From Bacteroidota bacterium (GTDB lineage Bacteria; Bacteroidota; Bacteroidia; Chitinophagales; LD1): a stretch of 12,754 nt of DNA. Where the stretch lies: the NCBI GenBank assembly GCA_018267355.1, contig JAFDYP010000460.1, positions 1-12,754 on the forward strand. Reading direction: 5' to 3'. How positions within the stretch are numbered: the stretch's first letter is position 1; every line of letters starts with the position of its first letter. The notes beneath the pieces were generated by a model. It saw only the letters and a program-made list of their open reading frames with translations. It was not told where the DNA came from and did not search any database. Below are positions 1-12,754 of this stretch, piece by piece. A program made the position numbers and the translations under genes.

Positions 1-1063
1 CGAGCTGATTGATAGTATAAGGTAGCGTTTTCTTACTGAAGACATTCGTGAGTTCTGTCTTCAGTTGTTCGCCTTTGGCATCGAGGTCTGTGTAGATGCG
101 CGGGGTCTCGTCGAGCACTTTCAGCGTGGCGAGGCCGGCTCTCATGGCCAGAGGATTGCCGCTGAGGGTGCCCGCCTGATAGACAGTGCCGAGTGGCGCT
201 ATCATACTCATAATATCGCGGCGACCACCAAAAGCCCCAACCGGCAGGCCACCACCTATCACCTTACCAAAGGTCACGAGGTCTGCCCATACATTCAGCC
301 GCTGCTGTGCGCCACCTGCTGCGAGGCGGAAGCCTGTCATGACTTCGTCAAATATCAGGACAATGCCGTGCTTGGTACACAGCTCACGCATCAGCTCCAG
401 GTATCCGGGTAGTGGTGGCACGCAGCCCATATTGCCAGCTACCGGCTCTACTATGATGGCGGCGAGCTCGGCCTTGTTTTGCTCTATGCAATCTGAAAGT
501 GCCTGCTGGTCATTGAAGGCGAGCACCAGCGTATCGTCAGATACCACTGTGGGGATGCCGCCTTCCTGCCTGATGCCGAGTGTGGCTACACCGCTGCCAG
601 CTTTCTTCAGAAAAGGATCTGCATGCCCGTGGTAGTGCCCCTCAAACTTGATCACCTTAGCCCTGCCAGTGAAGCCGCGCGCGAGCCTCAGGGCACTCAT
701 GCAGGCCTCGGTGCCGCTATTGACCATGCGCACGAGGTCTATATTGGGCACCATCTTTTTGATCTGACGGGCTATGTCTATCTCGGTAGCCGTGGGTGCG
801 CCAAAAGAGAAAGCAGTATTCACTTGCTCAACTACTGCGGCCTGCACCTCTGGGTGACCGTGGCCGAGTATCATCGGGCCCCAGCTATTGATATAGTCGA
901 TATACTGATTGCCATCGACATCATACATATAGGCACCCTGCGCGCGCTGCATAAAAATGGGCGTACCACCCACCTGGCGAAAGGCGCGCACAGGAGAGTT
1001 GACCCCGCCCGGTATATGCGCCTGCGCCTGCTCAAAGAGTTCTTTGCTCTTGTTAATATTCAT
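1..1063 (-). CDS. hemL: Glutamate-1-semialdehyde 2,1-aminomutase, C-terminus off the window
   Basis: This PLP enzyme moves the amino group of glutamate-1-semialdehyde to give 5-aminolevulinate, the second step of the C5 heme pathway, in the cytoplasm. Translating the minus strand from the ATG at 1063 gives [20 protein letters not shown], then family signatures: [17 protein letters not shown] and [12 protein letters not shown] in the first half, and [18 protein letters not shown] carrying the PLP-binding lysine, K267 by my count. About 354 codons are present; the family is about 430 residues long, so roughly 75 C-terminal residues lie beyond the left edge. The start shares one base with the hemB stop (TAATG), so it is the last visible gene of the hem operon and probably translationally coupled. 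Whether more genes follow cannot be seen. No frameshift was found. Identification is secure. Confidence 0.96.
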
Positions 1064-2031
1064 TATAACGATTGTAGATATTGCTTTGCAAAATAAGTAG
1101 CGATCAGATCTGCGCCTGCACGCTTGATAGCAATGAGAGACTCACGCACGGCGGCTTCTTCATTCAGCCAGCCATTGGCGGCAGCGGCTTTGATCATGGC
1201 GTACTCGCCGCTGACCTGATAGGCGGCTACCGGTACATTCACTTCATTCTTTACGTCCCGTATGATATCTAGGTAGGCGCCGGCTGGCTTTACCATCACG
1301 ATATCTGCGCCCTCGGCTATGTCATCGTTCACTTCTTTGAGCGCCTCACGCCTGTTTCGCGGGTCCATCTGGTAGCTCTTCTTGTCTCCAAACCCCGGGG
1401 CACTATCCAGTGCATCGCGGAAGGGACCGTAGAAGCAGGATGCATACTTGGCGCTGTAGGAGAGGATGCCGGTCTTGGTCAGGTGGCTCTGCTCCAGTGC
1501 TGTGCGTATCGCCCCTACCCGTCCATCCATCATATCAGATGGCGCTACTATATCTGCACCATAGGTGGCGTGCAGCACACTCATCTCGCTCAGGACGGCT
1601 ACCGTTTCATCATTGATGATCTCCTGCCCACGCACGAGGCCATCATGCCCGTGCGGAGAGAACGGGTCCAGCGCTACATCGGTCATCACGCACATCTCGG
1701 GGCTGGAGTCCTTCACCGTTTTGATAGCGCGTATCATGAGACCGTCTTTATTCAGTGCTTCGGAGCAGCGGTCATCTTTCAGGTGGTCAGGTACTTTGAC
1801 AAAAAGCAATACAGCTCTGATACCGAGATGCCATAGTGCTTTGATCTCTGCGTGCAATGTGTCCAGACTGAGCCGGTAGTAGCCGGGCATGGAGCTGATC
1901 TCCTCCCTGACATCTGTGCCATCCGTCACAAATAGCGGCACAATAAAATCATGCGGCTGCAAAATGGTCTCAGCCACCAGCTCGCGTATAGCGCTGCTCT
2001 GTCTCAGTGTCCTGTTTCTTCTCTGCATCAT
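1063..2031 (-). CDS. hemB: Delta-aminolevulinic acid dehydratase (porphobilinogen synthase), Mg-type
   Basis: HemB condenses two 5-aminolevulinate molecules into porphobilinogen. The 322-residue length is normal. The two active-site lysines are K195 in [17 protein letters not shown] and K248 in [17 protein letters not shown]. The metal-site segment reads [14 protein letters not shown] (118-131), with Asp/Ala where zinc enzymes carry a three-cysteine cluster. By family knowledge this is the non-zinc, magnesium-dependent class, as in Pseudomonas. The ATG at 2031 overlaps the hemF stop by 4 nt (ATGA), which supports this start; a second Met follows directly. The stop shares a base with hemL. The order hemF-hemB-hemL puts early-step enzymes at the 3' end of the operon. 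Confidence 0.97.
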
Positions 2032-2936
2032 ATCCAGTCTTTGGGTGATAGTAGTATTTGCTGCAGCCGTGCTTCTTCGCCGCCCGGCAGCGGCTGGTAG
2101 TCATACTCAAAGCGTACTTCCGGCGGCAGGCTCATCAGTATGCTCTCCGTGCGGCCATTGCTTTTCAGGCCAAAGATAGTGCCGCGGTCGTGTATGAGAT
2201 TAAACTCCACATAGCGGCCCCTGCGTATCAGCTGCCAGTGTTTCTGCGCATCAGTGTAGGTGAGGCGCATCCTGAGCTCTACGATAGGCAGGTAGGCATC
2301 TATAAAGGCCTTACCGTTTGACTGCGCGAACTGCAACAGCGTGCCTGCCTGCAAAGCAGCCGATGGACGCAGGTGATCATAGAAGATGCCACCTATACCG
2401 CGGCGCTCATTGCCCCTGTGCGTATTGACAAAGTAGTCGTCGCATTGCTTTTTGAAAAGCGGATACCATACCGGGTCAAACTGGTCACAGCTGCTTTTAT
2501 GCACCAGATGAAAGTGAACAGCATCTTCATCAAAAAGATAGCAAGGCGTCAGATCTGCGCCACCGCCAAACCAGCAGTCAGTCACCGCGCCTGCCTCATT
2601 GTAGACTTCAAAGTATCGATAGTTAGCATGGACCGTGGGCACCATGGGGCTGTGTGGATGGATCACCAACGAGAGGCCGCAGGCGAAGAAGCGAGCGCCA
2701 TCTATTTTCAATTGTGTACGGATGCCATCGGTCATGTCTCCATAGACCTCAGAGATATTGACGCCCCCTTTTTCAAAAACATTGCCACCAGCTATCACAC
2801 GTGTCGTGCCGCCACCACCGCCGTGGCGCTCCCAGAGATCCTCGCGAAACTGCGCATGGCCATCTACCTGCTCTATGCGCCGGCAGATCTGGTCCTGCAG
2901 CTGACTGATCCACGATACAAATTCTTCCCGCTTCAT
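2028..2936 (-). CDS. hemF: Oxygen-dependent coproporphyrinogen III oxidase
   Basis: HemF oxidatively decarboxylates two propionates of coproporphyrinogen III to vinyl groups, using O2, to give protoporphyrinogen IX. The 302-residue protein matches the family end to end: a Gly-rich [13 protein letters not shown] (39-51), VHANYRYFE (102-110), [13 protein letters not shown] (123-135) and [17 protein letters not shown] (173-189). H93, H103, H141 or H143, and H173 correspond to the conserved histidines of the family. It is unrelated to the radical-SAM anaerobic enzyme HemN, so an oxygen-using lifestyle is implied. It is coupled on both sides by 4-nt ATGA overlaps, with hemE upstream and hemB downstream, which fixes its start at 2936. 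Confidence 0.97.
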
Positions 2937-3964
2937 ACTGTGTATTCTTTTACAGCATCTACGAAGGCCTTTGCATTATCTACCGGCACGTGCGGCAGGA
3001 TGCCATGGCCGAGATTGGCTATATAGCGCTGCGGGCCAAAATCGTTTATCATCTTAGTGACATCCTTCTTGATCTGTGCAGGAGTAGTCAGTAGTTTGAT
3101 AGGATCAAAATTGCCTTGCACAGTCAGTTTACTACCGGTCAGTATCCTGGCATACTTAGGACTGATAGTCCAGTCGACGCCCACGGCAGCAGCGCTCGTC
3201 TCTGCCAGCTGCGGTAGCGCGTACCAGCTACCCTTAGGGAAAAGAATGACAGGGCACAGCGGTGAGATGGCATCTGCTATCTGTCTCAGGTATGGCAGTG
3301 CATACAGATCAAAATCTGCCGGCGCCAGCATACCGCTCCAGCTATCAAATACCTGTATACAGTCAGCGCCTGCAGCTACCTGCGCTCTGAGGTATGAGAT
3401 GGTGGCGTCAGTGATCTTTTGCAGTAATGCATGAGCCAAATGCGGCTGTGAAAAGCAGAACTGCTTTGCCTTATCAAAGTTCTTGCTGCCTTTGCCTTCT
3501 ACCATATAGCAGAGGATGGTGAACGGCGCACCAGCGAAGCCGATAAGCGGCACGCGGCCATTGAGTGCTTTCTTCGTCATAGAGATAGCCTGGCAGACGT
3601 AGTCGAGGCGCTCTGCTGCGCCCTCTACCTGCAGCCGGTCTATATCCGCTTGTGTACTGATCGTGTCAGGCAGGATGGGACCTTTGTTTTCCTCCAGTAG
3701 TACTTTGACGCCGAGTGCCTGAGGTATCACCAGTATATCTGAGAAAATAATAGCAGCATCAGGGCCGATGATATCTATAGGCTGTAGCGTGATCTCGCAG
3801 GCCAGCTCGGGGGTCTCCACGCGGGTGAAGAAGTCGTATTTAGCACGCAGTGTCATGTACTCTGGCAGGTAGCGACCTGCCTGGCGCATCATCCATACGG
3901 GTGGGCGCTCTACGGTCTCGCCACGCAATGCGCGCAGCAGGAGGTGTTGTGGTTTATCGGTCAT
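2933..3964 (-). CDS. hemE: Uroporphyrinogen III decarboxylase
   Basis: HemE removes four acetate carboxyls from uroporphyrinogen III to give coproporphyrinogen III; it needs no cofactor and is cytoplasmic. The 343-residue length is typical. [17 protein letters not shown] (20-36) carries the substrate-binding arginines R27 and R31. [14 protein letters not shown] contains the catalytic aspartate D76. [20 protein letters not shown] supplies the conserved tyrosine, and [16 protein letters not shown] is the C-terminal signature. The ATG at 3964 lies inside the end of hemD (11-bp overlap). The stop overlaps hemF by 4 nt. All expected motifs are intact. Confidence 0.97.
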
Positions 3965-4649
3965 GAGTATCTGAAGGGTGATAGTTTGATAATAAATGTA
4001 GCATCTGCTCTGGAGTGGGTGTGGCTGGCACGAGTAGGTTGATATCCGTGATTCGTTCGCGCAGATGTGAGGCGGTAGTCGGGCCTATGCAGCAGCAGAT
4101 ACTGGTTGATTTAATGACATTGTGCAGCAGGTAGCTGTCTACACCACTCGGACTGAAAAAAAGAATCATATCATAAGCGTCTGTGACCACGGGGCCAATG
4201 AGATCTGTACGGTAGACCTCCAGCGTATGATAGCTGATCCCGGCATCCGCCAGGCGTGTTCCGAGCGTATCCAGTGTGAGATTTCCCGTCAGATGGAGGA
4301 TGCTGTGTATTGCTTTGTTTTCCGTGATGAGTGCGGATAGTGACTCTGCATTATCTGCACTGGCAGTTGTATTGATACCATGCTGTGCCAGGGAGTCTTT
4401 TGTTTTGCCCGACAGGGCGTAGATCATTTTAGTCTGGCAAAGAGATGTGAGCCTGTCATCCTTCATTGCATGCTCTACTGCCTGGCTGCTGGTGAAGGCG
4501 ATAGCATCGTACTGTGTCGCATCTATATTAGTCGTATCACACGCTACAGGCGTGACGCGGAGCATCTCCACACAGGTGATCTCCAGGCCGCGCTGAGTGT
4601 AGGTGGCTATGAGCGCGTCGTCGAGCTTTTTAGTCGAGAGTACTTTCAT
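3954..4649 (-). CDS. hemD: Uroporphyrinogen III synthase
   Basis: HemD closes the linear tetrapyrrole hydroxymethylbilane with inversion of ring D to give uroporphyrinogen III. The family is very divergent in sequence, so the call rests on both motifs and position. Visible are the two half-domain signatures FTSSQAVEH (52-60) and [10 protein letters not shown] (164-173), the conserved VYRT tyrosine (Y146) and IGPTTASHL (188-196). The length of 231 residues is usual for a stand-alone HemD. It begins 20 bp inside hemC and ends 11 bp inside hemE. Lying directly between hemC and hemE, as is common in bacteria, makes the assignment firm despite weak sequence conservation. Confidence 0.92.
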
Positions 4650-5565
4650 CGCTCCAGTCTTTACAGCGTATCTCGTCCATCAGGCCTTCGGCTCCCGGCT
4701 GGACCAGCAGTGCCTCGGCAGCTGTGGTGCCGGCATCTGCTATCTGCGCCTGATCAAATACCCGTTCTACAAAATAAGCTCTGGTACCGTCGAAAGAATG
4801 CACGGCACCTTTGAAGTGTAAATCATCACCACTCATATAGGCATAGGCACTCACAGGCACCGAGCAGCCGCCCATCAGCCTGCGCAGGAACTGCCGCTCC
4901 GCGTGTGCTGCGGTCATTGTCGGTGTGTGATTGATCCTCGGCCAGGTAGTCGCGAGGCGCTGATCATCCAGACGCGACACGATGCCCACTACCCCCTGTG
5001 CAGGTGCAGGTATCATCCAGTCCAGCGTGATGGCCTCTGCCGGCAGCAGGCCCACGCGCTCGAGTCCTGCTTTGGCGAAGATGACGCCGTCCATGTCTGT
5101 ATTCTCTCCGTACTTGCGGAGGCGGGTTTGTACGTTGCCGCGGATGGATGTGGTGTTGTGATCCGGGTATTTCGCTTGCCATTGCGCTATGCGGCGGAGG
5201 CTACTGGTGGCTATGGTAAAAGATGAACCGTCCGTAAGTTTCGTTTTGTCTTTGACCAGCGCTACGTCCTCATGAGCACCGCGTGGCAGTACAGCAGAGA
5301 GAGTGAGGCCGGTAGCCAGTTGTGTCGGTACATCTTTCAGCGAGTGTACCGCTAGATCGGCAGTGCCCTCCAGCAGGGCGATGTCGAGTTGCCTGGTGAA
5401 AACGCCTGATACGCCCATGGCGTAGATAGGCTGTGTGAGGTGCGTATCGCCGGTGCTCTCGATAGGCACTAGTACGGATGTGATGCCGCAGCCGGCCAGT
5501 GCGCGCTGTACCTCCTCTGCCTGCCACAGTGCGAGCTGGCTGCTGCGCGTGGCGATCCTTATCAT
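4630..5565 (-). CDS. hemC: Porphobilinogen deaminase (hydroxymethylbilane synthase)
   Basis: HemC polymerises four porphobilinogens on a covalently held dipyrromethane primer to give hydroxymethylbilane. I chose the ATG at 5565, giving MIRIATRSSQLALWQAEEVQ and 311 residues, because this is where family homology starts; an in-frame GTG at 5580 would add five residues overlapping hemA. Signatures are AVHSLKDVPTQ with the catalytic aspartate (D78), ATSSLRRIAQ and SIRGNVQTRL for substrate binding, and RRLMGGCSVPV with C234, which should carry the dipyrromethane cofactor. It starts 7 nt after the hemA stop and ends 20 bp inside hemD. Confidence 0.97.
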   Translation of the reverse strand: MIRIATRSSQLALWQAEEVQRALAGCGITSVLVPIESTGDTHLTQPIYAMGVSGVFTRQLDIALLEGTADLAVHSLKDVPTQLATGLTLSAVLPRGAHEDVALVKDKTKLTDGSSFTIATSSLRRIAQWQAKYPDHNTTSIRGNVQTRLRKYGENTDMDGVIFAKAGLERVGLLPAEAITLDWMIPAPAQGVVGIVSRLDDQRLATTWPRINHTPTMTAAHAERQFLRRLMGGCSVPVSAYAYMSGDDLHFKGAVHSFDGTRAYFVERVFDQAQIADAGTTAAEALLVQPGAEGLMDEIRCKDWSDESTLD

Positions 5566-5572
5566 ACCGCTA

Positions 5573-6628
5573 TCAATCACAGCAAATGACCCAATCAGGT
5601 GAAACAGGTTTCTGCGTAGTAAACTCTATGCGGCGGCGCTGCCAGGCTATCAACTCAGAAATGTTTTCCTCGATGATCTTCTCGGCAAAGGGTACCTGGT
5701 TTTTGCGCTTGTCTATCGTCTCATTGATGATCTCTGAGAGCTGGTCTATGTCGTAGAGCCGCACACCCGGCAGGTCGCGGACCTCGGGGGCTACATTGCT
5801 CGGTACAGACATGTCAAAGATGAGGCGGATAGGCGTATCACGTATATCAGCGGCAGTGACCAGCGGGTGGTCTGCGCCTGTGGCTACCACCAGCACTTCA
5901 CTTTGGGTCAGTGCGGTGGGCAGGTCCTTTGACTGCGCGGCGAGGACATTGAACTCTCTGGCCAGTGAGGCCGCTTTCTCTTCATTGCGATTCACCAGCG
6001 TGACGGACACGTCACTGAGATAATGAGTCAGGTTTCTCAGGGTCAGTGTGCCTATTTTACCCAGGCCGTAGAGGGTGAGGCGCTGCAGCTGCTTCATTGT
6101 ATTTTCTTTGTGAAAGAGCTGCACCACCGCATACGAGGTAGAAGTAGTGCCATCAGAGAGGCTGGTGGTGCTGCGCACCTCCTTGGAGGTCTTGAGCGCA
6201 GTGGTCGTCAGCTTCTCCATCAGCCCGCTCACCATGCCGTATTCCTTGGCCTCGCCAAAAGCCTTCTTGAGCTGGCCTACGATCTCATAGTCACCTAGTA
6301 TCTGAGACTCAATGCCCGATGCCACGCGCAGCAGGTGCCGTATGGCGTCCACTCCCTTTTTGATAAAGATATACTCCGATATCTCCTGCTCAGATACCTG
6401 GCAGTGCGTGCGGAAAACATCTACCAACTGCTCAGGTGCGGGTGCCAGAGCATATATCTCAGTCCTATTGCAGGTAGATAAAATGAAGAAATCTCTGCCG
6501 GGATCACTGGCCGCCTCACCATATATAGCGCGGATGGCTGTAGTAGTGAGCGCAAATTTGCTCCTTATTTCCAACGACGTTTTCCTGTAGTTCACTCCGA
6601 TTATTGTTAGACAAATGTCATTTTCCAT
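5573..6628 (-). CDS. hemA: Glutamyl-tRNA reductase, short form
   Basis: HemA reduces glutamyl-tRNA(Glu) with NADPH to glutamate-1-semialdehyde, the committed step of the C5 pathway. The ATG at 6628 gives MENDICLTIIGVNYRKTSLE; a TTG ten codons upstream is less likely because it coincides with the candidate promoter. The catalytic domain has STCNRTEIYA with nucleophile C53 and GIESQILGDYEIVGQLKKA. The NADPH-binding domain has LYGLGKIG (186-193) and ATGADHPLV. The protein is only 351 residues, against about 410-430 usually. It stops soon after ISELIAWQRRR (323-333), so most of the C-terminal dimerisation domain is missing. hemC follows after 7 nt, leaving no room for a frameshifted remainder. 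It is the first gene of the operon. Confidence 0.95.
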   Translation of the reverse strand: MENDICLTIIGVNYRKTSLEIRSKFALTTTAIRAIYGEAASDPGRDFFILSTCNRTEIYALAPAPEQLVDVFRTHCQVSEQEISEYIFIKKGVDAIRHLLRVASGIESQILGDYEIVGQLKKAFGEAKEYGMVSGLMEKLTTTALKTSKEVRSTTSLSDGTTSTSYAVVQLFHKENTMKQLQRLTLYGLGKIGTLTLRNLTHYLSDVSVTLVNRNEEKAASLAREFNVLAAQSKDLPTALTQSEVLVVATGADHPLVTAADIRDTPIRLIFDMSVPSNVAPEVRDLPGVRLYDIDQLSEIINETIDKRKNQVPFAEKIIEENISELIAWQRRRIEFTTQKPVSPDWVICCD

Positions 6629-6655
6629 GTAAAGAGCTACGTCGATTTGTGGCCG

Positions 6656-6663
6656 CAAAGATT
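6656..6663 (-). promoter_or_regulatory. Candidate -7 box of the hem operon promoter
   Basis: Read on the minus strand, AATCTTTG followed by CGGCC matches the Bacteroidota -7 consensus TAnnTTTG at all but the first base. It would start transcription about 20 nt before the hemA ATG at 6628. No convincing -33 TTTG is seen at the usual distance upstream, so the call is tentative. Confidence 0.4.
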
Positions 6664-6690
6664 GATTTTAATAGCTCGATTTTCAGATAC

Positions 6691-6718
6691 TTGACGTTAA
6701 ATGACAATACTATGACAA
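6691..6718. promoter_or_regulatory. Three TGAC direct repeats at helical spacing between hemA and hemH
   Basis: TGAC occurs at 6692, 6702 and 6713, with the last two extended to TGACAA/TGACAAAA. The spacings of 10 and 11 bp put the motifs on one face of the helix. The block lies midway in the 142-bp divergent region, between the candidate promoters of hemA (6656-6663) and hemH (from 6735). That is where a shared regulator of both transcripts would bind. No known consensus such as Fur is recognised; the operator role is inference. Confidence 0.3.
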
Positions 6719-6734
6719 AACACTGCAGGCGTAT

Positions 6735-6770
6735 TTTGGTTATTACCGCTGATTGATAAACTTTCGCGCC
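6735..6770 (+). promoter_or_regulatory. Candidate hemH promoter with almost no leader
   Basis: A TTTG at 6735-6738 resembles the Bacteroidota -33 element. After 18 nt comes TAAACTTTCG (6757-6766), which is close to the -7 box TAnnTTTG, and the ATG follows 4 nt later. The 10-mer ACTTTCGCGC, one base and then ATG is repeated exactly in front of hemJ. The transcript would have a very short leader or none. Confidence 0.45.
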
Positions 6771-7823
6771 ATGTTGAATGAAACTACAGGCCTCATTATC
6801 CTCAATCTGGGGTCGCCTGATAGCCCCGGGCGGGGCGATGTGAATAGATACCTCCGGCAGTTTCTGATGGACGAAAGGGTGATAGATGCACCGGCGCTGA
6901 TCCGTACTATACTGGTGAAAGGGTATATCGTACCTATGCGGGCGGGCAACTCTGCCGAGGCCTACCGCTCTATCTGGACCAAAGAAGGCTCACCGCTGAA
7001 AGTGATCTCTGAGAAGTTTACAAATCTGGTGACAGACAGACTGGAGATGCCCGTGACCCTCGGTATGCGCTATGGAGCACCATCTACAGCCTACGCACTG
7101 CAAAAGCTACTAGAGAAAGCTCCGGCCATCAAAACCATACTCGTAGCCCCTATGTACCCACACTACGCCATGAGCAGCTACGAGACGGCCATAGAGCACC
7201 TGAAAGACGCTGTACGCGCCCAAGGAGTGGAGGCGCAGATCAAAGTACTGAAACCTTTCTACAATGATCCGCTATATATAGAAGCACTGGCTGCGAGTAT
7301 ACGCCCCTATCTGGAGCGCGGGGAGTATGATGGCTACCTCTTCAGCTATCATGGCCTGCCGGTGAGGCATCTGAAGAAATCTGACCCCACCAAGAAGCAC
7401 TGCTACATCACCGGGGACTGCTGCGATGTAGCCTCTGACGCCTGGCAGACATGCTATAAGCACCAGGTGAAGATCACCACCAAACTGGTGACTGAGAAGC
7501 TAGGCATGGAGCCAAACAAAATCCATCTGACCTTTCAGTCACGGCTGGCGGGGGATAAGTGGCTGCAGCCCTATACAGACACCGCCCTGCAGGAGCTGCC
7601 AAAGAATGGTACAAAGAAACTGCTGGCCTTGTGCCCTGCATTCGTAGCGGACTGCCTGGAGACGCTGGAGGAGATGGATATGCGCGGCCGCGAAGAGTTT
7701 ATGAGCAATGGTGGCGAGGTGTATGACCGTGTACCATGCCTCAATACGGATGCCGCCTGGGTAGATGCTTTTGCCACCTGGTGCGCGCAGCACGAGGGGG
7801 CGTATGCTTCGCTTTGGAAATAA
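6771..7823 (+). CDS. hemH: Ferrochelatase with an internal cysteine cluster
   Basis: HemH inserts Fe2+ into protoporphyrin IX to make protoheme, the terminal step. The ATG at 6771 gives MLNETTGLIILNLGSPDSP and 350 residues; a TTG six codons upstream would lie in the promoter. Motifs: LNLGSP near the N-terminus, MYPHYAMSS (128-136), the catalytic histidine H194 in SYHGLP, and CPAFVADCLETLEE (288-301) with the conserved acidic residues. Directly after the histidine lies C211-x5-CC-x9-C228, reminiscent of bacterial ferrochelatases with an internal [2Fe-2S] cluster; cluster binding here is inference. There are no membrane segments. It diverges from the hem operon and converges on hemJ, whose product makes its substrate. 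Confidence 0.96.
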   Translation: MLNETTGLIILNLGSPDSPGRGDVNRYLRQFLMDERVIDAPALIRTILVKGYIVPMRAGNSAEAYRSIWTKEGSPLKVISEKFTNLVTDRLEMPVTLGMRYGAPSTAYALQKLLEKAPAIKTILVAPMYPHYAMSSYETAIEHLKDAVRAQGVEAQIKVLKPFYNDPLYIEALAASIRPYLERGEYDGYLFSYHGLPVRHLKKSDPTKKHCYITGDCCDVASDAWQTCYKHQVKITTKLVTEKLGMEPNKIHLTFQSRLAGDKWLQPYTDTALQELPKNGTKKLLALCPAFVADCLETLEEMDMRGREEFMSNGGEVYDRVPCLNTDAAWVDAFATWCAQHEGAYASLWK

Positions 7824-7829
7824 AACTTT

Positions 7830-8357
7830 TTACTGTTTAGCGCGGATACTTTTGTAGAGCCTGATAGCGCTCATGAGGATGGCTATAAATAAGACCAGCC
7901 CTCCTAAAGCCCACAACACACTCAGGCCATCTTTGACCACTACCAGCATGACGATTGATAAGAGGAATATTGTGGCTACTTCATTCCATATACGCAGCTG
8001 CTGCGAGCTGTAGCGGAAGATGCCCGCCGCCTGCTGGCGGAAGATGGCGTGGAGACTAAAGTGATATGCATACAATCCAACTACAAAGCACAATTTGATC
8101 ACCAGCCAGGTGGGCAGCGAGCCATATAGTGTATACATCCACGTGCCGAATATGAGGGTAAGCACTGCCGATGGCCAGGTGATGCCATACCACAGGCGGC
8201 GCGTCATGAGGAGCAGCTGCTGCAGCAATATGCTGCGCTCCGGCTCGCTTTTTTCATTCGCCTCCGCGTTGTAAACAAACAGCCGGACGATGTAGAAAAG
8301 GCCGCTAAACCAGGTAACGATGAATATGATATGGAGTGCCTTTACGTATTGGTACAT
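7830..8357 (-). CDS. hemJ: HemJ-type protoporphyrinogen IX oxidase, membrane protein
   Basis: HemJ (UPF0093/CopD-like family) oxidises protoporphyrinogen IX to protoporphyrin IX in the cytoplasmic membrane, replacing HemG or HemY. The ATG at 8357 gives 175 residues beginning MYQYVKALHIIFIVTWFSGL; in-frame codons upstream encode nothing family-like. I see four hydrophobic segments, roughly 8-28, 60-78, 84-104 and 120-140. H9 in KALHIIFIVTWFSGLFYIVR and K88 in LPTWLVIKL match the His and Lys known to be essential in this family. Its location beside a complete hem set that lacks any other protoporphyrinogen oxidase supports the call. Only 6 bp separate its stop from the hemH stop, with no terminator hairpin visible between them. 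Confidence 0.92.
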   Translation of the reverse strand: MYQYVKALHIIFIVTWFSGLFYIVRLFVYNAEANEKSEPERSILLQQLLLMTRRLWYGITWPSAVLTLIFGTWMYTLYGSLPTWLVIKLCFVVGLYAYHFSLHAIFRQQAAGIFRYSSQQLRIWNEVATIFLLSIVMLVVVKDGLSVLWALGGLVLFIAILMSAIRLYKSIRAKQ

Positions 8358-8370
8358 CGCGCGAAAGTAA
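8358..8370 (-). promoter_or_regulatory. Candidate hemJ promoter abutting the start codon
   Basis: On the minus strand TTACTTTCGCGCG runs straight into the ATG. It shares ACTTTCGCGC plus the same 1-nt gap with the hemH start region. It resembles a -7 box TAnnTTTG with one change. No clear -33 box was found. Confidence 0.4.
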
Positions 8371-8486
8371 ATAAGGAAGTGAGATTTTCCCGTTTTAAAA
8401 TTCACCACCAGACATTCCTGACAGGGCTGTGGTATGATGAAAACTATTGAGCCAGTGTGCGCAAAGAGCATCAATTGGGATTCTCT

Positions 8487-8605
8487 GAGAAGGGCTTATT
8501 GTTCTGATTCAGCGGCTTAGGTGCTATACCCTGCCGCCGGGGGCAAAAACAAACCCTTGCGAAAAGCGAGACTCAAAAACATGAAGCCGCTATTAAAGCC
8601 TTCTC
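8487..8605. other. Branched inverted-repeat segment, possible structured RNA or repeat
   Basis: Two nested arms enclose two hairpins. GAGAAGG (8487-8493) plus CTT (8495-8497) pair with 8596-8598 and 8599-8605; AGCGGCTT (8511-8518) pairs with AAGCCGCT (8584-8591). Inside are TGCC/GGCA (8532-8535 with 8542-8545) and a hairpin at 8556-8570 whose 5-bp stem closes GAAAA. No gene is recognised. One minus-strand frame ends in an intact stretch reading FESRFSQGFVFAPGGRV, so a degenerate coding remnant or dispersed repeat is also possible. Confidence 0.35.
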
Positions 8606-8610
8606 TTAGA

Positions 8611-8836
8611 GGCCTGCCCTATGGTAGGCCGGGTTTGCAGGCTTAGCCTCCGGCCTTCCGATTTCCGGTGCAAAATATGATTGTCCGCAGCGGCTGCACC
8701 GCGCATCTTTGCCACCGATACGAGGACGACGTCTGCAGACACCGTGACCCTCTGACCAAACTTAAAGGATGGGTTCTGAATGTTGAGACAGCCCCTGCGC
8801 CTCGCGGCCGGGGGGGCGTTTCGTTTGGGGGGGGGG
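8611..8836. other. Intergenic segment with hairpin and G-tracts, no clear gene
   Basis: GGCCTGCC (8611-8618) and GGTAGGCC (8623-8630) form an 8-bp stem with one wobble around a 4-nt loop. GGCCGG (8627-8632) can instead pair with CCGGCC (8650-8655), giving alternative folds. The rest has a 7-G run (8810-8816) and a 10-G run (8827-8836). Short open frames exist on both strands, but they run into the GTAC array and resemble no family I know, so I do not call a gene. Confidence 0.4.
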
Positions 8837-8837
8837 T

Positions 8838-8908
8838 GTACCGTACCACTCAGGTGTACCACTGTACCGTACCACTCTAGTGTACCACATCTGTACCACA
8901 GGTGTACC
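8838..8908 (-). repeat. GGTAC array, truncated copy C
   Basis: Eight GTACC cores on the plus strand start at 8838, 8843, 8856, 8864, 8869, 8882, 8893 and 8904. The intervals 5, 13, 8, 5, 13, 11, 11 equal those of the first eight positions of copy B (11392-11502). The last three cores and the octamer tail of the full element are missing. The copy lies just beyond the ATPase terminator. Same orientation as copy B, opposite to copy A. Confidence 0.85.
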
Positions 8909-8912
8909 ACTC

Positions 8913-8964
8913 AAAAACTCCGGGGCCGCAGGCCGTAGCCACGCCACCGCGCCTGCTCCCGGAG
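8913..8964 (-). terminator. Intrinsic terminator of the ATPase gene
   Basis: On the minus strand CTCCGGG (8964-8958) pairs with CCCGGAG (8924-8918), and inside it GCAGGC (8956-8951) pairs with GCCTGC (8933-8928). The loop is 17 nt, and five T residues follow (8917-8913). It starts 14 nt after the ATPase stop codon, the expected place for a rho-independent terminator. Confidence 0.8.
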
Positions 8965-8978
8965 GGTAGTATGATGCA

Positions 8979-10406
8979 TCAGGCAGCCTGGGCAGGTGGC
9001 TCGGGCCGTTTCAGGTAGCGGGCTACGGTGGTGAGGGGTATGGTGAGCTGTGCGGCTATCTCACGCATGCTCTTGCCCTCGGCGTGCAGGTCCTTGACGG
9101 CGGCTACCTTGTCGCCCAGCTCCTTGTCGCGCATCTCGCGCAGGTGGTCACTCTCACGGGCATAGCCCATAAACTCAAAGCCCAGGAAGTTGTGCGGCTT
9201 TGTGATCTGGCAGAGGCATACATTGTCAGCCTCGTAGAGCTTCTCGCCCACCCGGTGCTTGAGCTGCTTGAGATACAGGATGCGCGGGTCGCGGTGGCTT
9301 TTGCCTATGGCAAAGATGCTGTCGCACAGATTGCTAAACTGCTTGGAGCCCTGCAGGTGGTTTTCCTCTATCGGGCGCGAGGTATCACGCTTGGGCGTGT
9401 GCGCTATGATCAGCATAGAGACCTTCATTTTCTTCTTCACCCTATTGAGCATCTCCATGATAGGGTAGGCGTCTTTGGCGCGCTCATTGTCACTGCGCAG
9501 GGCGGTGAGATTGTCTATGATCACCACCCGGACACCCGTCTGGCGGATGTGCATGGCTATCTGCGCGTAGAGGTATTTCTCAAAACTGCTGTAGCCCCAC
9601 TGGCGGTAGTCGTCTTCCATATTGATCTCGGCGCGGTAGAGCTGGCGGCTAAACCTGTACGGGTCTGTGTACTCATGCGTATAGCGCGCCTGAAACTGCT
9701 TGGCCGTGAGCTCAAAGTCAAAGTACAAGACCGGCTGCGCCTGCGCCTCCATGCGAAAGTCACCGATGGGCACACCGCGGCTGATACTGTCTGCTATCTG
9801 CACGGCCAGTATAGACTTGCCCAGATTAGTATCGGCAAAGAGGATACACAGGTCGCGCTCATACCAGAAGGCGTCAAAGAGCGCCTTTGGCTCTGGCTCA
9901 AGGGCCGCCTGGTCTACCCAGTCGTCCACCGCCTGCGTGTGAAAGAGTACACCCTCAGACTGGTGCTCATCGCCCTCCCTCTCTATGGCCTCGCGCAGGG
10001 CGGCCAGCCGGGCCATCTCCTGCGCCTCTGCGGACCGCAGTGCCAGGTCGTCCAGCAGCTTTTGGGGTACGAATGGCGCGGGCTGTGAGGTGTGGCGGTC
10101 TATATCGGCCAGTACCGTCTCTGGCGTCAGGGCGCTCTGCTGCGCAGCCTGCTCACGCGCTATCTGCTCGGCTATGTTCTTTTGCATCTCGGCGCCTACC
10201 AGGTCGGCGCGGTGCAGCAGCGGCTTGTCAGGCAGCCAGGGCGTCAGGCCATCACGCTCGGCCTGGGCGCGGAGGGCAGCCTGCTCCCGCTCTCTGACCT
10301 CAGTGAGCGTAGCGGAGGGGTTTTGCCAGTCCGGGATGATGACTTTAGATGATTTGGTCACGGGTGTCACACCCGGAGGCAGTGGCCTCTGATTTGGATT
10401 TTCCAT
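8979..10406 (-). CDS. RecA/RepA-like AAA ATPase with C-terminal helix-turn-helix
   Basis: The 475-residue protein has three parts. Residues 1-170 are hydrophilic and rich in Ala, Glu, Gln and Arg, probably partly coiled. A RecA-fold P-loop domain follows, with Walker A ADTNLGKS (191-198), YFDFEL (228-233), Walker B VVIIDN (294-299) and a sensor-like IIAHTPKR (333-340). A C-terminal helix-turn-helix (about 437-466, GKSMREIAAQLTIPLTTVARYLKR) could read DNA. The layout resembles RepA/DnaB-type hexameric ATPases of plasmids and integrative elements, but no primase, integrase or mobilisation gene is in the window, so replication is only a guess. The ATG at 10406 is preferred to a TTG at 10538, which would add a leader overlapping hairpins and the promoter. 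The gene is followed by a strong terminator and flanked by GGTAC arrays in opposite orientations. Confidence 0.85.
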   Translation of the reverse strand: MENPNQRPLPPGVTPVTKSSKVIIPDWQNPSATLTEVREREQAALRAQAERDGLTPWLPDKPLLHRADLVGAEMQKNIAEQIAREQAAQQSALTPETVLADIDRHTSQPAPFVPQKLLDDLALRSAEAQEMARLAALREAIEREGDEHQSEGVLFHTQAVDDWVDQAALEPEPKALFDAFWYERDLCILFADTNLGKSILAVQIADSISRGVPIGDFRMEAQAQPVLYFDFELTAKQFQARYTHEYTDPYRFSRQLYRAEINMEDDYRQWGYSSFEKYLYAQIAMHIRQTGVRVVIIDNLTALRSDNERAKDAYPIMEMLNRVKKKMKVSMLIIAHTPKRDTSRPIEENHLQGSKQFSNLCDSIFAIGKSHRDPRILYLKQLKHRVGEKLYEADNVCLCQITKPHNFLGFEFMGYARESDHLREMRDKELGDKVAAVKDLHAEGKSMREIAAQLTIPLTTVARYLKRPEPPAQAA

Positions 10407-10459
10407 AGGTAAAATATGGGGGTAAGTGATAAAAAATAAAAGAGCTGATACGGTAGGAG

Positions 10460-10510
10460 GGCAGCCCGCGCGCCGCTGCCAAAAGAGATATGGTAGCACC
10501 GTCACTACCA
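10460..10510 (-). promoter_or_regulatory. Two stem-loops in the ATPase leader
   Basis: Two perfect 6-bp stems lie in the roughly 114-nt leader. TGGTAG (10510-10505 on the minus strand) pairs with CTACCA (10496-10491) around 8 nt. GGCAGC (10480-10475) pairs with GCTGCC (10465-10460) around a GC-rich 9-nt loop. The second is followed 22-30 nt later by a T-rich stretch. They may be an attenuator or a protein site; no riboswitch class is recognised. Confidence 0.35.
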
Positions 10511-10526
10511 GCTTTGAAATGCGATG

Positions 10527-10534
10527 CAAATATA
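10527..10534 (-). promoter_or_regulatory. Bacteroidota-type -7 box for the ATPase gene
   Basis: Minus-strand TATATTTG matches TAnnTTTG perfectly. A TTTA stands 20 nt upstream, where TTTG is expected. Transcription would begin near 10520, about 114 nt before the ATG at 10406. The upstream sequence (10535-10562) is AT-rich, as expected of a promoter. Confidence 0.55.
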
Positions 10535-10648
10535 GCAAAATAAACGGTAATTTATAAATATAGCTACCGGGCGGGCACTGTCAGATCTTGCCGAAAAAGC
10601 CAAAACCCGCACTGCCATTGGCTTTGCTCTGTGAATAAGTCTTTGGAG

Positions 10649-10829
10649 GGATTTACAGAATTACGGATTTACGGAATTACAGATTGGCCCGGCGGCAGAG
10701 GTGTACCATGTGGTACAGTGGTACATGGTGGTACGGCAGAGTGGTACAGATGTGGTACAGGGGTGGTACACCTGAGTGGTACGGTACAGTGGTACAGTAA
10801 AGTGGTACGGTACACAAAAGCCGTCATTC
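10649..10829 (+). repeat. Composite GGTAC element, full copy A
   Basis: The element starts with four RGAWTTAC octamers (10649-10680), then AGATTGGCCCGGCGGCAGAGG. Eleven GGTAC cores follow at 10712, 10720, 10730, 10743, 10754, 10765, 10778, 10783, 10791, 10804 and 10809, and it closes with CAAAAGCCGTCATTCC. The intervals 8, 10, 13, 11, 11, 13, 5, 8, 13, 5 are the mirror image of copy B. Most non-adjacent cores are preceded by GT, giving GTGGTAC. The intervals are not multiples of three, so the array is not coding. Confidence 0.9.
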
Positions 10830-10983
10830 CGATAGCCTGTCATCACAAAAAATAAGCGCGGCCAGGCTGAGGAATCCCCTGAGGGCGAGGCGCTATTAGT
10901 CCTTGTGTGAGGGTGTACATCCTCTGTATTTATCGCTGGAAACCCCCTTCGGGATGACGCGCCTTCGGCTTTATTATTGATCC
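10830..10983. other. Intergenic segment between copy A and the GIY-YIG stop
   Basis: No gene is seen. AGCGC (10855-10859) can pair with GCGCT (10890-10894), next to a run of A at 10847-10852; read on the minus strand this is a weak terminator-like arrangement for the GIY-YIG gene. CCTTCGGGATGACG (10946-10959) recurs as a direct repeat at 11363-11376. Confidence 0.4.
10946..10959 (+). repeat. 14-bp direct repeat, left copy (right copy 11363-11376)
   Basis: CCTTCGGGATGACG occurs identically at 10946-10959 and 11363-11376, flanking the GIY-YIG gene. The right copy abuts the outer end of element B. At the outer end of copy A a related GCCGTCATTCC is found on the complementary strand. Confidence 0.6.
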
Positions 10984-11271
10984 TTAATAGAATCGTATAG
11001 ATCTGTCCAGAGAGGGTTTATAGAAAATGAGATCCAGCTTCTTACCTCTCCTCCATCCTTTTATCCGTTTTTCTTCTGATATAGCTTCTTCTATATGGTA
11101 AAAGTGATGATAGTAAACCAATATATCACAGTTATATTTTGCTGTAAAGCACTTTGGGTCGATACGATCTTTGTGCTGTGCAATACGGCTGGCTATATCT
11201 GCTGTGACACCTACATACAAAACTGTATGATGCCTGTTTGTCATAATGTATACTGAACCGCCGCGTTTCAT
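10984..11271 (-). CDS. Small GIY-YIG nuclease family protein
   Basis: The 95-residue protein is a minimal single-domain GIY-YIG nuclease of the UvrC N-terminal-like type. VYIMTNRHHTVLYVGVTADI supplies the two-strand GIY...YVG core at about residues 7-26. R28 in SRIAQHK is in the place of the catalytic arginine, and the glutamates of IEEAISEEKRIKGWRR include the likely metal ligand. Small stand-alone members like this are frequent in Bacteroidota genomes and their biological role is not settled. No DNA-binding domain is added. The gene lies alone between two inverted copies of the GGTAC element, about 155 bp from copy A and 110 bp from copy B. Its lower GC content than the neighbours hints at separate ancestry. 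Confidence 0.88.
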   Translation of the reverse strand: MKRGGSVYIMTNRHHTVLYVGVTADIASRIAQHKDRIDPKCFTAKYNCDILVYYHHFYHIEEAISEEKRIKGWRRGKKLDLIFYKPSLDRSIRFY

Positions 11272-11378
11272 GAGGACAAGATAAAAAGGTATCTATCATT
11301 TTTCATCTGTGAGTGAGGGGATCCCTCGGTTTTATCTCGCTTATATGTTATGGCTTGAAAAACCTTCGGGATGACGGC
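11272..11378. other. Intergenic segment upstream of the GIY-YIG gene
   Basis: This AT-rich stretch must hold the promoter of the GIY-YIG gene. On the minus strand TACCTTTT, about 20-30 nt before the ATG, resembles a -7 box with one change; it is weak. The palindrome GGGATCCC lies at about 11319-11326. No further gene was seen between here and the ACC deaminase-like stop at 11574; copy B fills most of that gap. Confidence 0.3.
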
Positions 11379-11562
11379 GCTCTTTTGGGGTGTACCGTAC
11401 CACTCCGGTGTACCACTGTACCGTACCACTCAGGTGTACCACACCTGTACCACTAGTGTGCCACCTTGCTGTACCATTCCGTACCACTGTACCATGTGGT
11501 ACACCCCCTCCTCTGCCGCCGGGCCAATCTGTAATTCCGTAAATCTGTAATTCTGTAAATCC
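11374..11562 (-). repeat. Composite GGTAC element, full copy B
   Basis: This is an inverted copy of element A. On the minus strand it has four RGAWTTAC octamers (11562-11531), the same AGATTGGCCCGGCGGCAGAGG block, and then GGTAC cores. Plus-strand GTACC starts are 11392, 11397, 11410, 11418, 11423, 11436, 11447, 11471, 11481 and 11489, plus a decayed GTGCC at 11458. An extra AGGGGG lies before the first core compared with copy A. It begins 12 bp beyond the stop codon of the PLP enzyme gene. Confidence 0.9.
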
Positions 11563-11573
11563 CCTTAAAACCA

Positions 11574-12467
11574 CTACCGGTACCCGCACAGTCCCTGTAG
11601 CCCTCCCGTATGCACCGCTATGATCCTCGTCCCTCTGGGGAAATAGCCCTTGCCGATCATATCGTAGAGGCCCATCAGCAGCTTGCCGGTGTAGACAGGC
11701 TCCAGCTGCACGAGGTGGTCGAGTTTAAATTTCTTGATGAAATCTATCAGCTCCGGCGTGACCCGCGCATAGCCGCCACAGTGATAGTCAAAGGTGATAT
11801 GCCAGTTGTCAAACGTCTGCTCCGTATAGTCTGAGACCAGCTGCGTGATGGCAGGGGTGAGGGTGTCCTTGCCCTTCAGTGCGGAGAAGCCTATGGCTTT
11901 GCGTTTGCCGTACAGGCCAGCTACGATACCCGCCAGCGTGCCGCCTGTGCCGGAGGCGGTGCAGATATAGTCATAGTCCTCTTTGATCTCATTCACCATC
12001 TCTATCACGCCGGGGAGGGCGAGGATATTGGTACCGCCCTCGGGTATGTGGTAGTGGCGGCCCAGCTGTAGGCGCAGGCTATCTATGCTGTCGGGGTCGT
12101 CTTTGTGGCGGTACTGCTCACGGTCCATCCAGAGGATGCGCATGCCATTCCTTGTAGCGGTGAGGAGCGTATCGGTAGGCGTATCTGTCGGCTCGCCGCG
12201 TATGATGCCTATGGTCTTAAATCCGAATAGCCGCCCCGCAGCCGCCGTAGCCGCGATATGATTGCTATACACCCCGCCAAAGGTCAGCAGCGTGTCATGG
12301 CCCTCCTCGCGCGCCCCTACGAGGTTGTAGCGCAGCTTGCGCCACTTATTGCCCTGTATCTCTGGGTGGGTCAGGTCGTCGCGCTTCAGCCATAGCTCTA
12401 CACCGCGCTCCGTGATGAGCGGCTCGCGGATGAGCTGTAGCGGCGTAGGAGCGGGTAGACCGGACAT
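11574..12467 (-). CDS. PLP enzyme of the ACC deaminase / D-cysteine desulfhydrase family
   Basis: This 297-residue fold-type II PLP enzyme would deaminate 1-aminocyclopropane-1-carboxylate to 2-oxobutyrate and ammonia, or cleave D-cysteine to pyruvate, H2S and ammonia. LKRDDLTHPEIQGNKWRKLR carries the PLP lysine K41. TFGGVYSNHIAATAAAG holds the family serine. ASGTGGTLAGI is the phosphate-binding glycine loop, and the C-terminal AVHTGGLQG has HTGG, which I associate more with D-cysteine desulfhydrase-like members than with true ACC deaminases. Substrate therefore stays open. The ATG at 12467 follows a promoter-like box by 5 nt. Its upstream region and first 22 bases recur inverted at the window edge. 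Confidence 0.88.
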   Translation of the reverse strand: MSGLPAPTPLQLIREPLITERGVELWLKRDDLTHPEIQGNKWRKLRYNLVGAREEGHDTLLTFGGVYSNHIAATAAAGRLFGFKTIGIIRGEPTDTPTDTLLTATRNGMRILWMDREQYRHKDDPDSIDSLRLQLGRHYHIPEGGTNILALPGVIEMVNEIKEDYDYICTASGTGGTLAGIVAGLYGKRKAIGFSALKGKDTLTPAITQLVSDYTEQTFDNWHITFDYHCGGYARVTPELIDFIKKFKLDHLVQLEPVYTGKLLMGLYDMIGKGYFPRGTRIIAVHTGGLQGLCGYR

Positions 12468-12514
12468 GGGTGCATAGGTAGGGATTTTTGAGATTTACAG
12501 AATTACTGATTTAC
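12446..12514 (+). repeat. Left arm of a perfect 69-bp inverted repeat
   Basis: The sequence 12446-12514 equals the reverse complement of 12686-12754 without a mismatch. The arm holds the first 22 bases of the PLP enzyme gene, its start and promoter box, and three RGAWTTAC-type octamers (12491-12514). Inside the arms the similarity fades over the next octamers. Confidence 0.97.
12473..12480 (-). promoter_or_regulatory. Candidate -7 box directly before the PLP enzyme gene
   Basis: Minus-strand TACCTATG followed by CACCC and ATG is one base away from TAnnTTTG, with the same near-leaderless placement as hemH and hemJ. The identical box occurs in the inverted copy at 12720-12727 on the plus strand. 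Confidence 0.4.
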
Positions 12515-12685
12515 AGATGTACGGATTGCAATGCATATTGACTCTCCAATCCACCCTGAAGTGAGGCTTAGAAGTCATGTTGCACTCGTATTCAAGTCTC
12601 CCTTTAGGTCACGGATCCCGATGTAGTCGGGAGAGATTTAGAGGATTGTATTACCGTTTGTTTCATTCTGTAAATCCGTAATTCC
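12515..12685. other. Spacer between the inverted arms
   Basis: The 171-bp spacer has no gene. Further diverged octamers border both arms (12515-12527, and 12665-12685 on the opposite strand). A perfect hairpin TCCCGA-TGTAG-TCGGGA lies at 12616-12632. The remainder is unremarkable. Confidence 0.5.
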
Positions 12686-12754
12686 GTAAATCAGTAATTC
12701 TGTAAATCTCAAAAATCCCTACCTATGCACCCATGTCCGGTCTACCCGCTCCTA
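12686..12754 (-). repeat. Right arm of the 69-bp inverted repeat, cut by the window edge
   Basis: This is the reverse-complement partner of 12446-12514. It runs to the last base of the window, so its true length is unknown. Confidence 0.97.
12733..12754 (+). CDS. First codons of a second PLP enzyme copy, partial
   Basis: ATG at 12733 opens MSGLPAP, identical at the DNA level to the start of the gene at 12467, but on the plus strand. Only 22 bases are visible. It is either a divergent duplicate gene or a fold-back artefact of assembly. Confidence 0.5.

Follow-up and report, generated by a model that had tools for sequence, protein, structure and literature searches.

What are three arrays of the pentamer GGTAC, with conserved cores and diverged spacers, doing around a single gene? 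We addressed this question in a 12,754-nucleotide stretch of DNA (contig JAFDYP010000460.1; hereafter the window, which is the entire contig), whose named genus relatives point to a Bacteroidota origin and whose host genome is 77% complete. The arrays, designated A, B and C, accompany a gene for a helicase-like ATPase with a C-terminal helix-turn-helix (HTH). From sequence comparison, we propose that the arrays are probably the cognate multi-copy binding sites of this helicase, derived from an origin-like helicase–array–primase module of the kind found in Tn4555-type elements, and that the helicase HTH very probably reads the array motif.

The window contains 56 GGTAC copies, compared with an expectation of 18.1 from 200 dinucleotide shuffles (standard deviation 4.5, maximum 31), none of which reached 56. 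The original prediction, made from the letters of the window, described arrays A and B as sharing ten core-to-core intervals (8, 10, 13, 11, 11, 13, 5, 8, 13 and 5) and array C (8 cores) as retaining the last seven. This description is correct, provided that the degenerate GGCAC core of B is included. The predicted excess of changes outside the cores was also borne out, with 1 of 55 core bases but 15 of 47 spacer bases differing between A and B (Fisher p = 3.8e-5); the corresponding values are 0/40 and 10/31 for A and C (p = 9.6e-5), and 1/40 and 6/31 for B and C (p = 0.038). Because A and B also have in common a 54-nt flank that is 98% identical (flank versus spacer divergence, p = 4e-5), they are copies of a larger unit of which the spacers are the fast-changing part. 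The arrays could in principle be a young tandem repeat without function, in which every unit has the same core and exchange between units only shuffles the spacers; the 26-nt and 13-nt periodicity within the arrays and the clustering of A–B spacer differences in runs would fit. We consider this extremely unlikely, because homologous arrays with other cores adjoin related helicases in other species and match their helices.

Those homologous arrays also bear on the proposal that selection maintains both GGTAC and its spacing. The cores stand as the conserved, protein-target-like part, but exact spacing does not hold as a general rule. Since the homologous arrays are spaced differently and are mostly bidirectional, the 8/10/13/11... 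layout may reflect the common descent of A, B and C. The suggested search of related genomes for the same GGTAC array was unproductive: the six other genomes of the genus hold only scattered GGTAC triplets, at most two of them overlapping, because the homologous arrays there carry other cores.

The helicase is of the DnaB/RepA/T7 gp4 type and has a RecA-type ATPase core. A fold search with its structure model matched 1olo, 1g8y, 1q57 and 2q6t; G196, K197, S198 and other core residues are invariant across 34 aligned sequences, and the modelled fold suggests that the protein is probably a hexamer. Comparison of the window helicase with three homologs from the genus gave ratios of nonsynonymous to synonymous substitution rates (dN/dS) of 0.19–0.30, the four helicases being 69–81% identical in pairwise alignments. 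Matches to the HTH were 8vd6, an entry named CAP REPEAT whose alignment showed a five-fold internal repeat, and, weakly, an IS21-type transposase. Longer open frames of 676–699 amino acids, with an extra domain and 35–37% identity to the window helicase, are present in L289, L291, L295 and L296, and TGTCC/GTCCC arrays accompany three of these four (L291, L295 and L296).

Related stretches numbered 465 in a collection holding one genome per species, with 80 of these carried forward, and a further 18 came from viral contigs. Most of the 80 carry a Bacteroidota label; seven are assigned elsewhere (three to Acidobacteria, two to Azovibrio and one each to Bacillota and Bacteriovoracaceae), which may come from binning error or transfer. 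After removal of five truncated or misaligned sequences from 104 distinct homologs, 99 were usable, and an array was called 3' of the helicase gene in 89 of them. In 74 of these 89, no more than 20 nt separate the first motif from the helicase stop; copies occur in both orientations in 83, and 217 of 343 pairs of same-orientation neighbours have start positions 9 nt apart; the commonest form (18/89) has three copies each way, 9 nt apart. Of 97 downstream stretches, 64 held five or more copies, compared with 2 of 485 shuffled stretches and 28 of 515 random windows from the same loci. The motif occurs in dialects: TGTACCAC in the window and, elsewhere, TGTTCCAC, TGTCCCAC, TGTTCAC, TGTAACA, GTCCG and so on. 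Genome G004 (SZAS-59) has TGTTCCAC arrays, and G005 (UBA1941) has TGTTCCAC/TGTTTCAC arrays beside a related helicase and beside a related gene for a pyridoxal phosphate (PLP)-dependent enzyme; another helicase of G005 is flanked on each side by TGTCCCA-type arrays. The repeats adjoin the replication gene in the relatives, as iterons do, and in the window arrays flank the gene on either side. Another palindromic array type, with GGAAAC cores, is located less than about 250 nt from TGTTYCAC arrays at L076:6846-6886 (G005) and L080:5675-5715 (G003).

The arrays look like helicase docking sites because their motif changes in step with the DNA-reading helix of the helicase. Across the 89 homologs with an array, motif similarity (measured by 5-mers) tracks recognition-helix identity after ATPase-core identity is removed (partial r = 0.631; FKVK-type helices, misaligned by MAFFT, were retained). 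None of 2,000 permutations reached this value (maximum 0.137), and the best of 231 nine-residue windows in the ATPase core gave 0.217. A scan of the C terminus peaked at PLTTVARYL/LTTVARYLK (0.635/0.632), and the remainder of the HTH added no signal once the helix was given (−0.033). Direct reading of the motif by the helix is therefore favoured, because co-inheritance of neighbouring DNA would not predict a signal confined to the helix. Base contacts by this helix type are known from resolvases. At helix position 6, Arg pairs with YCA in 10 of 11 cases, Lys with CAC in 24 of 25, and Asn or Ile with CAA in 3 of 4; the window (Arg, TGTACCA), which is not part of these counts, fits the Arg–YCA rule. 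For a held-out set, 23 new homologs yielded 21 after removal of two duplicates, 19 from a class scan in which 21 of 395 genomes matched and 2 from plasmid records. With the array search extended over the last 100 nt of the gene, 16 had an array, and the nearest helix beat the average prediction in 13 of them (mean 0.437 versus 0.060; 0 of 5,000 random predictors).

Covariation of this kind is compatible with binding of any sort, and the helicase HTH might use the array as an operator that only regulates its own operon or its neighbours, with no role in replication. The array abuts the helicase gene and often lies between the helicase and primase genes, and array A of the window is upstream of the helicase gene. 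However, arrays start just past the stop, away from the promoter, in the 74 of 89 cases noted above, they also stand beside unrelated genes, and a hexameric-helicase fold would be odd for a repressor; we regard an operator as rather improbable. Inverted arms might alternatively form a hairpin at the 3' end of the mRNA, as a terminator or stabiliser, and four palindromic relatives do fold well beyond shuffled sequences (z = −5.4, −6.7, −3.3 and −8.1). The six strands of A, B and C nevertheless fold ordinarily (z = −1.15, 0.72, −0.29, −1.10, 0.92 and 1.90) despite their conserved cores, leaving a hairpin in the window unsupported, and a hairpin gives no reason for the motif to track a protein helix. 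An RNA element is thus very unlikely.

The usual neighbour of the helicase homologs is DUF6371 (PF19898; L149:5060-6163 and relatives). A sequence search of the PDB with DUF6371 found no meaningful match; its model resembles a Zn ribbon followed by a DnaG/T7-type TOPRIM primase and retrieved primases in a fold search, making it a likely primase. Tn4555-type mobilizable elements are treated in PMC5704250 and PMC13183296, the latter listing a Tn4555 gene block in which excisionase, AAA family ATPase, DUF6371 and CfxA follow one another in that order. Bacteroides records with Tn4555-like gene content, from which we infer that they are Tn4555-type, encode a homologous helicase and have a TGTCCCA array inside the gene end. 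In Prevotella, primase-family genes occur on mobilizable transposons according to PMC4755523, a paper that also mentions an unrelated 188-bp repeat. At the window locus, close to which the contig ends, a Pfam run on the 12 main open reading frames (ORFs) of the window identified only haem-synthesis genes, the helicase, the GIY-YIG protein and a PLP enzyme, with no integrase, excisionase, mobilization gene or DUF6371.

If the arrays are docking sites for the helicase, each HTH would bind one core, and several helicase subunits, probably a hexamer given the RepA/DnaB/T7 gp4 fold, would thereby be assembled on the array. In the complete modules of mobile elements, the array would load helicase and primase; we lean slightly towards the array there being an iteron-like replication origin or loading site. 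In the lineage of the window, the helicase gene and arrays would have become chromosomal, with the primase gene elsewhere in the genome, and the arrays would have multiplied between genes.

Dispersal of arrays among chromosomal genes is seen in the genus of the window, Mucilaginibacter genomes and a single Chitinophagaceae genome. Searches with one pattern each located 7 array sites in G003, where the reversed pattern used as a control had 0 matches, and about 19 in G051, where it had 5. Of 30 family genomes, four contained a TGTTCAC pattern, namely the four genus members that possess the helicase; it was absent from the three genus members without the helicase (73–96% complete), and the exact pattern was absent from five helicase-bearing family genomes outside the genus. 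Gene order also differs around the arrays. Immediately before the PLP-enzyme gene, G004 has gene F18, G005 has F18 plus three arrays, G003 has gene F5 plus one array, and the window has a UPF0093 gene plus the whole C–helicase–A–GIY-YIG–B block; at the F5–F11 locus, the helicase has opposite orientations in G004 and G005 and the genes between the arrays differ. These synteny differences indicate that the arrays sit at rearrangement junctions, where exchange may occur by ordinary homology or via the helicase. That chromosomal arrays act as docking sites and, being repeats, as exchange points is a tentative view, in which our confidence falls somewhat short of even.

Such dispersal could also mean that a neighbouring protein, or something else, spreads the arrays as mobile intergenic repeats, with the helicase as resident driver. 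The arrays of the genus flank the helicase gene on both sides, their dialect tracks the driver and orphans persist; this resembles repetitive extragenic palindromic (REP) sequences and their REP-associated tyrosine transposases (RAYTs), in which, according to PMC3686654, repeats flank the driver gene, a different driver goes with a different repeat class and driver loss leaves orphans. However, the RecA-type fold of the helicase is not that of a Y1 transposase, and 6 of 10 genomes (G042, G043, G044, G046, G047 and G048) have a single full array site. We consider this explanation unlikely, attractive though the parallel is.

Single antiphage-type genes lie between the array of the helicase and the next same-motif array in L123, L124, L143, L165, L178, L186, L191, L194, L198 and L073, the types including GajA/OLD-like, TIR, SIR2-like, Fic, PDC-S31 and DzbB-like. 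PADLOC models match 10 of 16 single-gene slots chosen by eye from 55 array-bounded ORFs; among 30 non-slot control ORFs, hand-chosen from 75 random ones of 404, they match 20 families, each through a single member, a tally by family rather than by ORF. It is conceivable, although we doubt it, that a widespread and so far unrecognised system exists in which a replicative-type helicase reads dispersed chromosomal arrays of its own dialect. Gene slots bordered by these arrays, many of them holding one antiphage-type gene, would undergo swapping, inversion or copying at the arrays. If true, this would be a helicase-driven counterpart of REP/RAYT and integron cassettes, with a specificity legible from the helix. 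In G003, about 230 nt separate a gene for a REP-associated tyrosine transposase (L079:5246-5800) from a TGTTCAC array.

Several observations weigh against reading the arrays as binding sites of the helicase. Arrays were not called in 10 of the 99 usable homologs and 5 of the 21 new ones, and at least 7 of the 89 calls (L126, L145, L146, L161, L162, L199 and L214) were doubtful by eye yet retained. The 5-mer measure is crude and the homologs are mutually non-independent. L212 and L174 are exceptions to the helix code, and L269, L279 and L290 were missed in the held-out set; the array of L269 (helix KSTVNRIIQ, motif TGTCCCA) fits the other KST/KTT helices by eye, as was noticed post hoc. Orphan arrays without a matching helicase occur, with TGTTCAC in G004 and G005 and TTYCAC in G003 and G000. 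Finally, no primase gene lies beside the window helicase, and the window arrays are direct, non-palindromic and spaced unlike those of the relatives.

The window opens with haem-synthesis genes (positions 1-8470; Pfam), followed in order by the features in the table. An Rfam search of 8380-12754 gave no match.

Table. Positions of the arrays, their flanks and neighbouring genes in the window
Feature	Position	Strand	Evidence or remark
Array C, 8 GGTAC cores (mostly GTGGTACA), one direction	8836-8912	-	about 70 nt 3' of helicase stop
Helicase-like ATPase, 475 aa from ATG, AAA_25 core and C-terminal HTH	8979-10406	-	Pfam, structure model, fold search
Helicase HTH, residues 427-466	9009-9128	-	model secondary structure, covariation
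Recognition helix LTTVARYLK, residues 458-466	9009-9035	-	model secondary structure, covariation
54-nt flank of array A: 8/16-nt ATTTAC-type repeat and GGCCCGGCGGCAGAGG	10648-10701	+	98% identity to array B flank
Array A, 11 direct GGTAC cores and 1 inverted head core	10700-10815	+	upstream of helicase gene
Inverted core at head of array A, TGTACCATGTGGTACA	10702-10717		sequence
Small GIY-YIG protein, 95 aa, between arrays A and B	10984-11271	-	Pfam
Array B, 10 exact cores, 1 degenerate (GGCAC) and 1 inverted head core	11390-11505	-	sequence
54-nt flank of array B, copy of 10648-10701	11510-11563	-	sequence comparison
PLP-dependent enzyme gene	11574-12467		Pfam

Other repeats accompany these features. 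An ATTTACRG/AATTACRG family of 8/16-nt repeats occupies 10648-10686, 11525-11563, 12492-12528 and 12665-12708 and has matches (E ≤ 0.001) in the window's own genome and in five of the six other genus genomes (G006 being the exception); two of the genus genomes with matches are without the helicase. The direct repeat CCTTCGGGATGACG flanks the GIY-YIG gene (10946-10959 and 11363-11376, one copy falling within 10901-10984) and perhaps belongs to a GIY-YIG insertion unit. An 82-nt inverted repeat of 96% identity (12446-12527 and 12673-12754) copies the start of the PLP-enzyme gene and reaches the contig end; it may be an assembly fold-back or a genuine inverted copy.

Read as helicase sites, an odd repeat becomes a testable protein–DNA pairing with many natural variants in the 465 related stretches, offering a natural residue-to-base code for an HTH. 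For Tn4555-type mobilizable elements, it would also supply a candidate origin or loading site. A likely primase role for DUF6371 and a possible route of accessory-gene exchange at short arrays in some Bacteroidota chromosomes would be further gains. Hexameric helicases, primases, iterons and Tn4555 are already known; no account of a helix–array code or of these arrays was found in the open-licence PubMed Central (PMC) literature. Relative to that literature, as far as searched, the new elements are a helicase-borne HTH whose recognition helix tracks the dialect of the helicase's array, together with the chromosomal dispersal of such arrays.

Among known repeat systems, clustered regularly interspaced short palindromic repeats (CRISPR) were ruled out by the 5-nt cores and 0–8-nt spacers, with no cas family in the Pfam run on the window ORFs, and an integron cassette array was set aside, with no integrase in the same run. 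The TGTTYCAC dialect resembles the half-sites of parS, the ParB target (TGTTTCAC/TGTTCCAC), whereas the other dialects do not; the ParB/parS idea was abandoned once these emerged, and no ParB search was made. RSF1010 RepA, T7 gp4 and DnaB are hexameric helicases that work with a primase, and the window helicase matches them in fold. RSF1010 leaves iteron binding to a separate protein, RepC, whereas the window helicase carries its own C-terminal HTH beside its own array. REP copies number hundreds and the array copies here are far fewer; the REP driver is a Y1 transposase, whereas the driver here is a helicase-type ATPase, and no REP-associated Y1 transposase gene was detected by Pfam among the 12 window ORFs. 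A parallel also comes from the phage-inducible chromosomal island-like elements (PLEs) of Vibrio (PMC8263062), where the replication protein RepA reads the origin repeats and each RepA type goes with its cognate origin; the origin specificity of RepA has also been taken over by a nuclease. The PLE origin described there comprises three semi-palindromic iterons of about 30 bp, whereas the arrays here have cores of 6–8 nt and their putative reader has a helicase fold.

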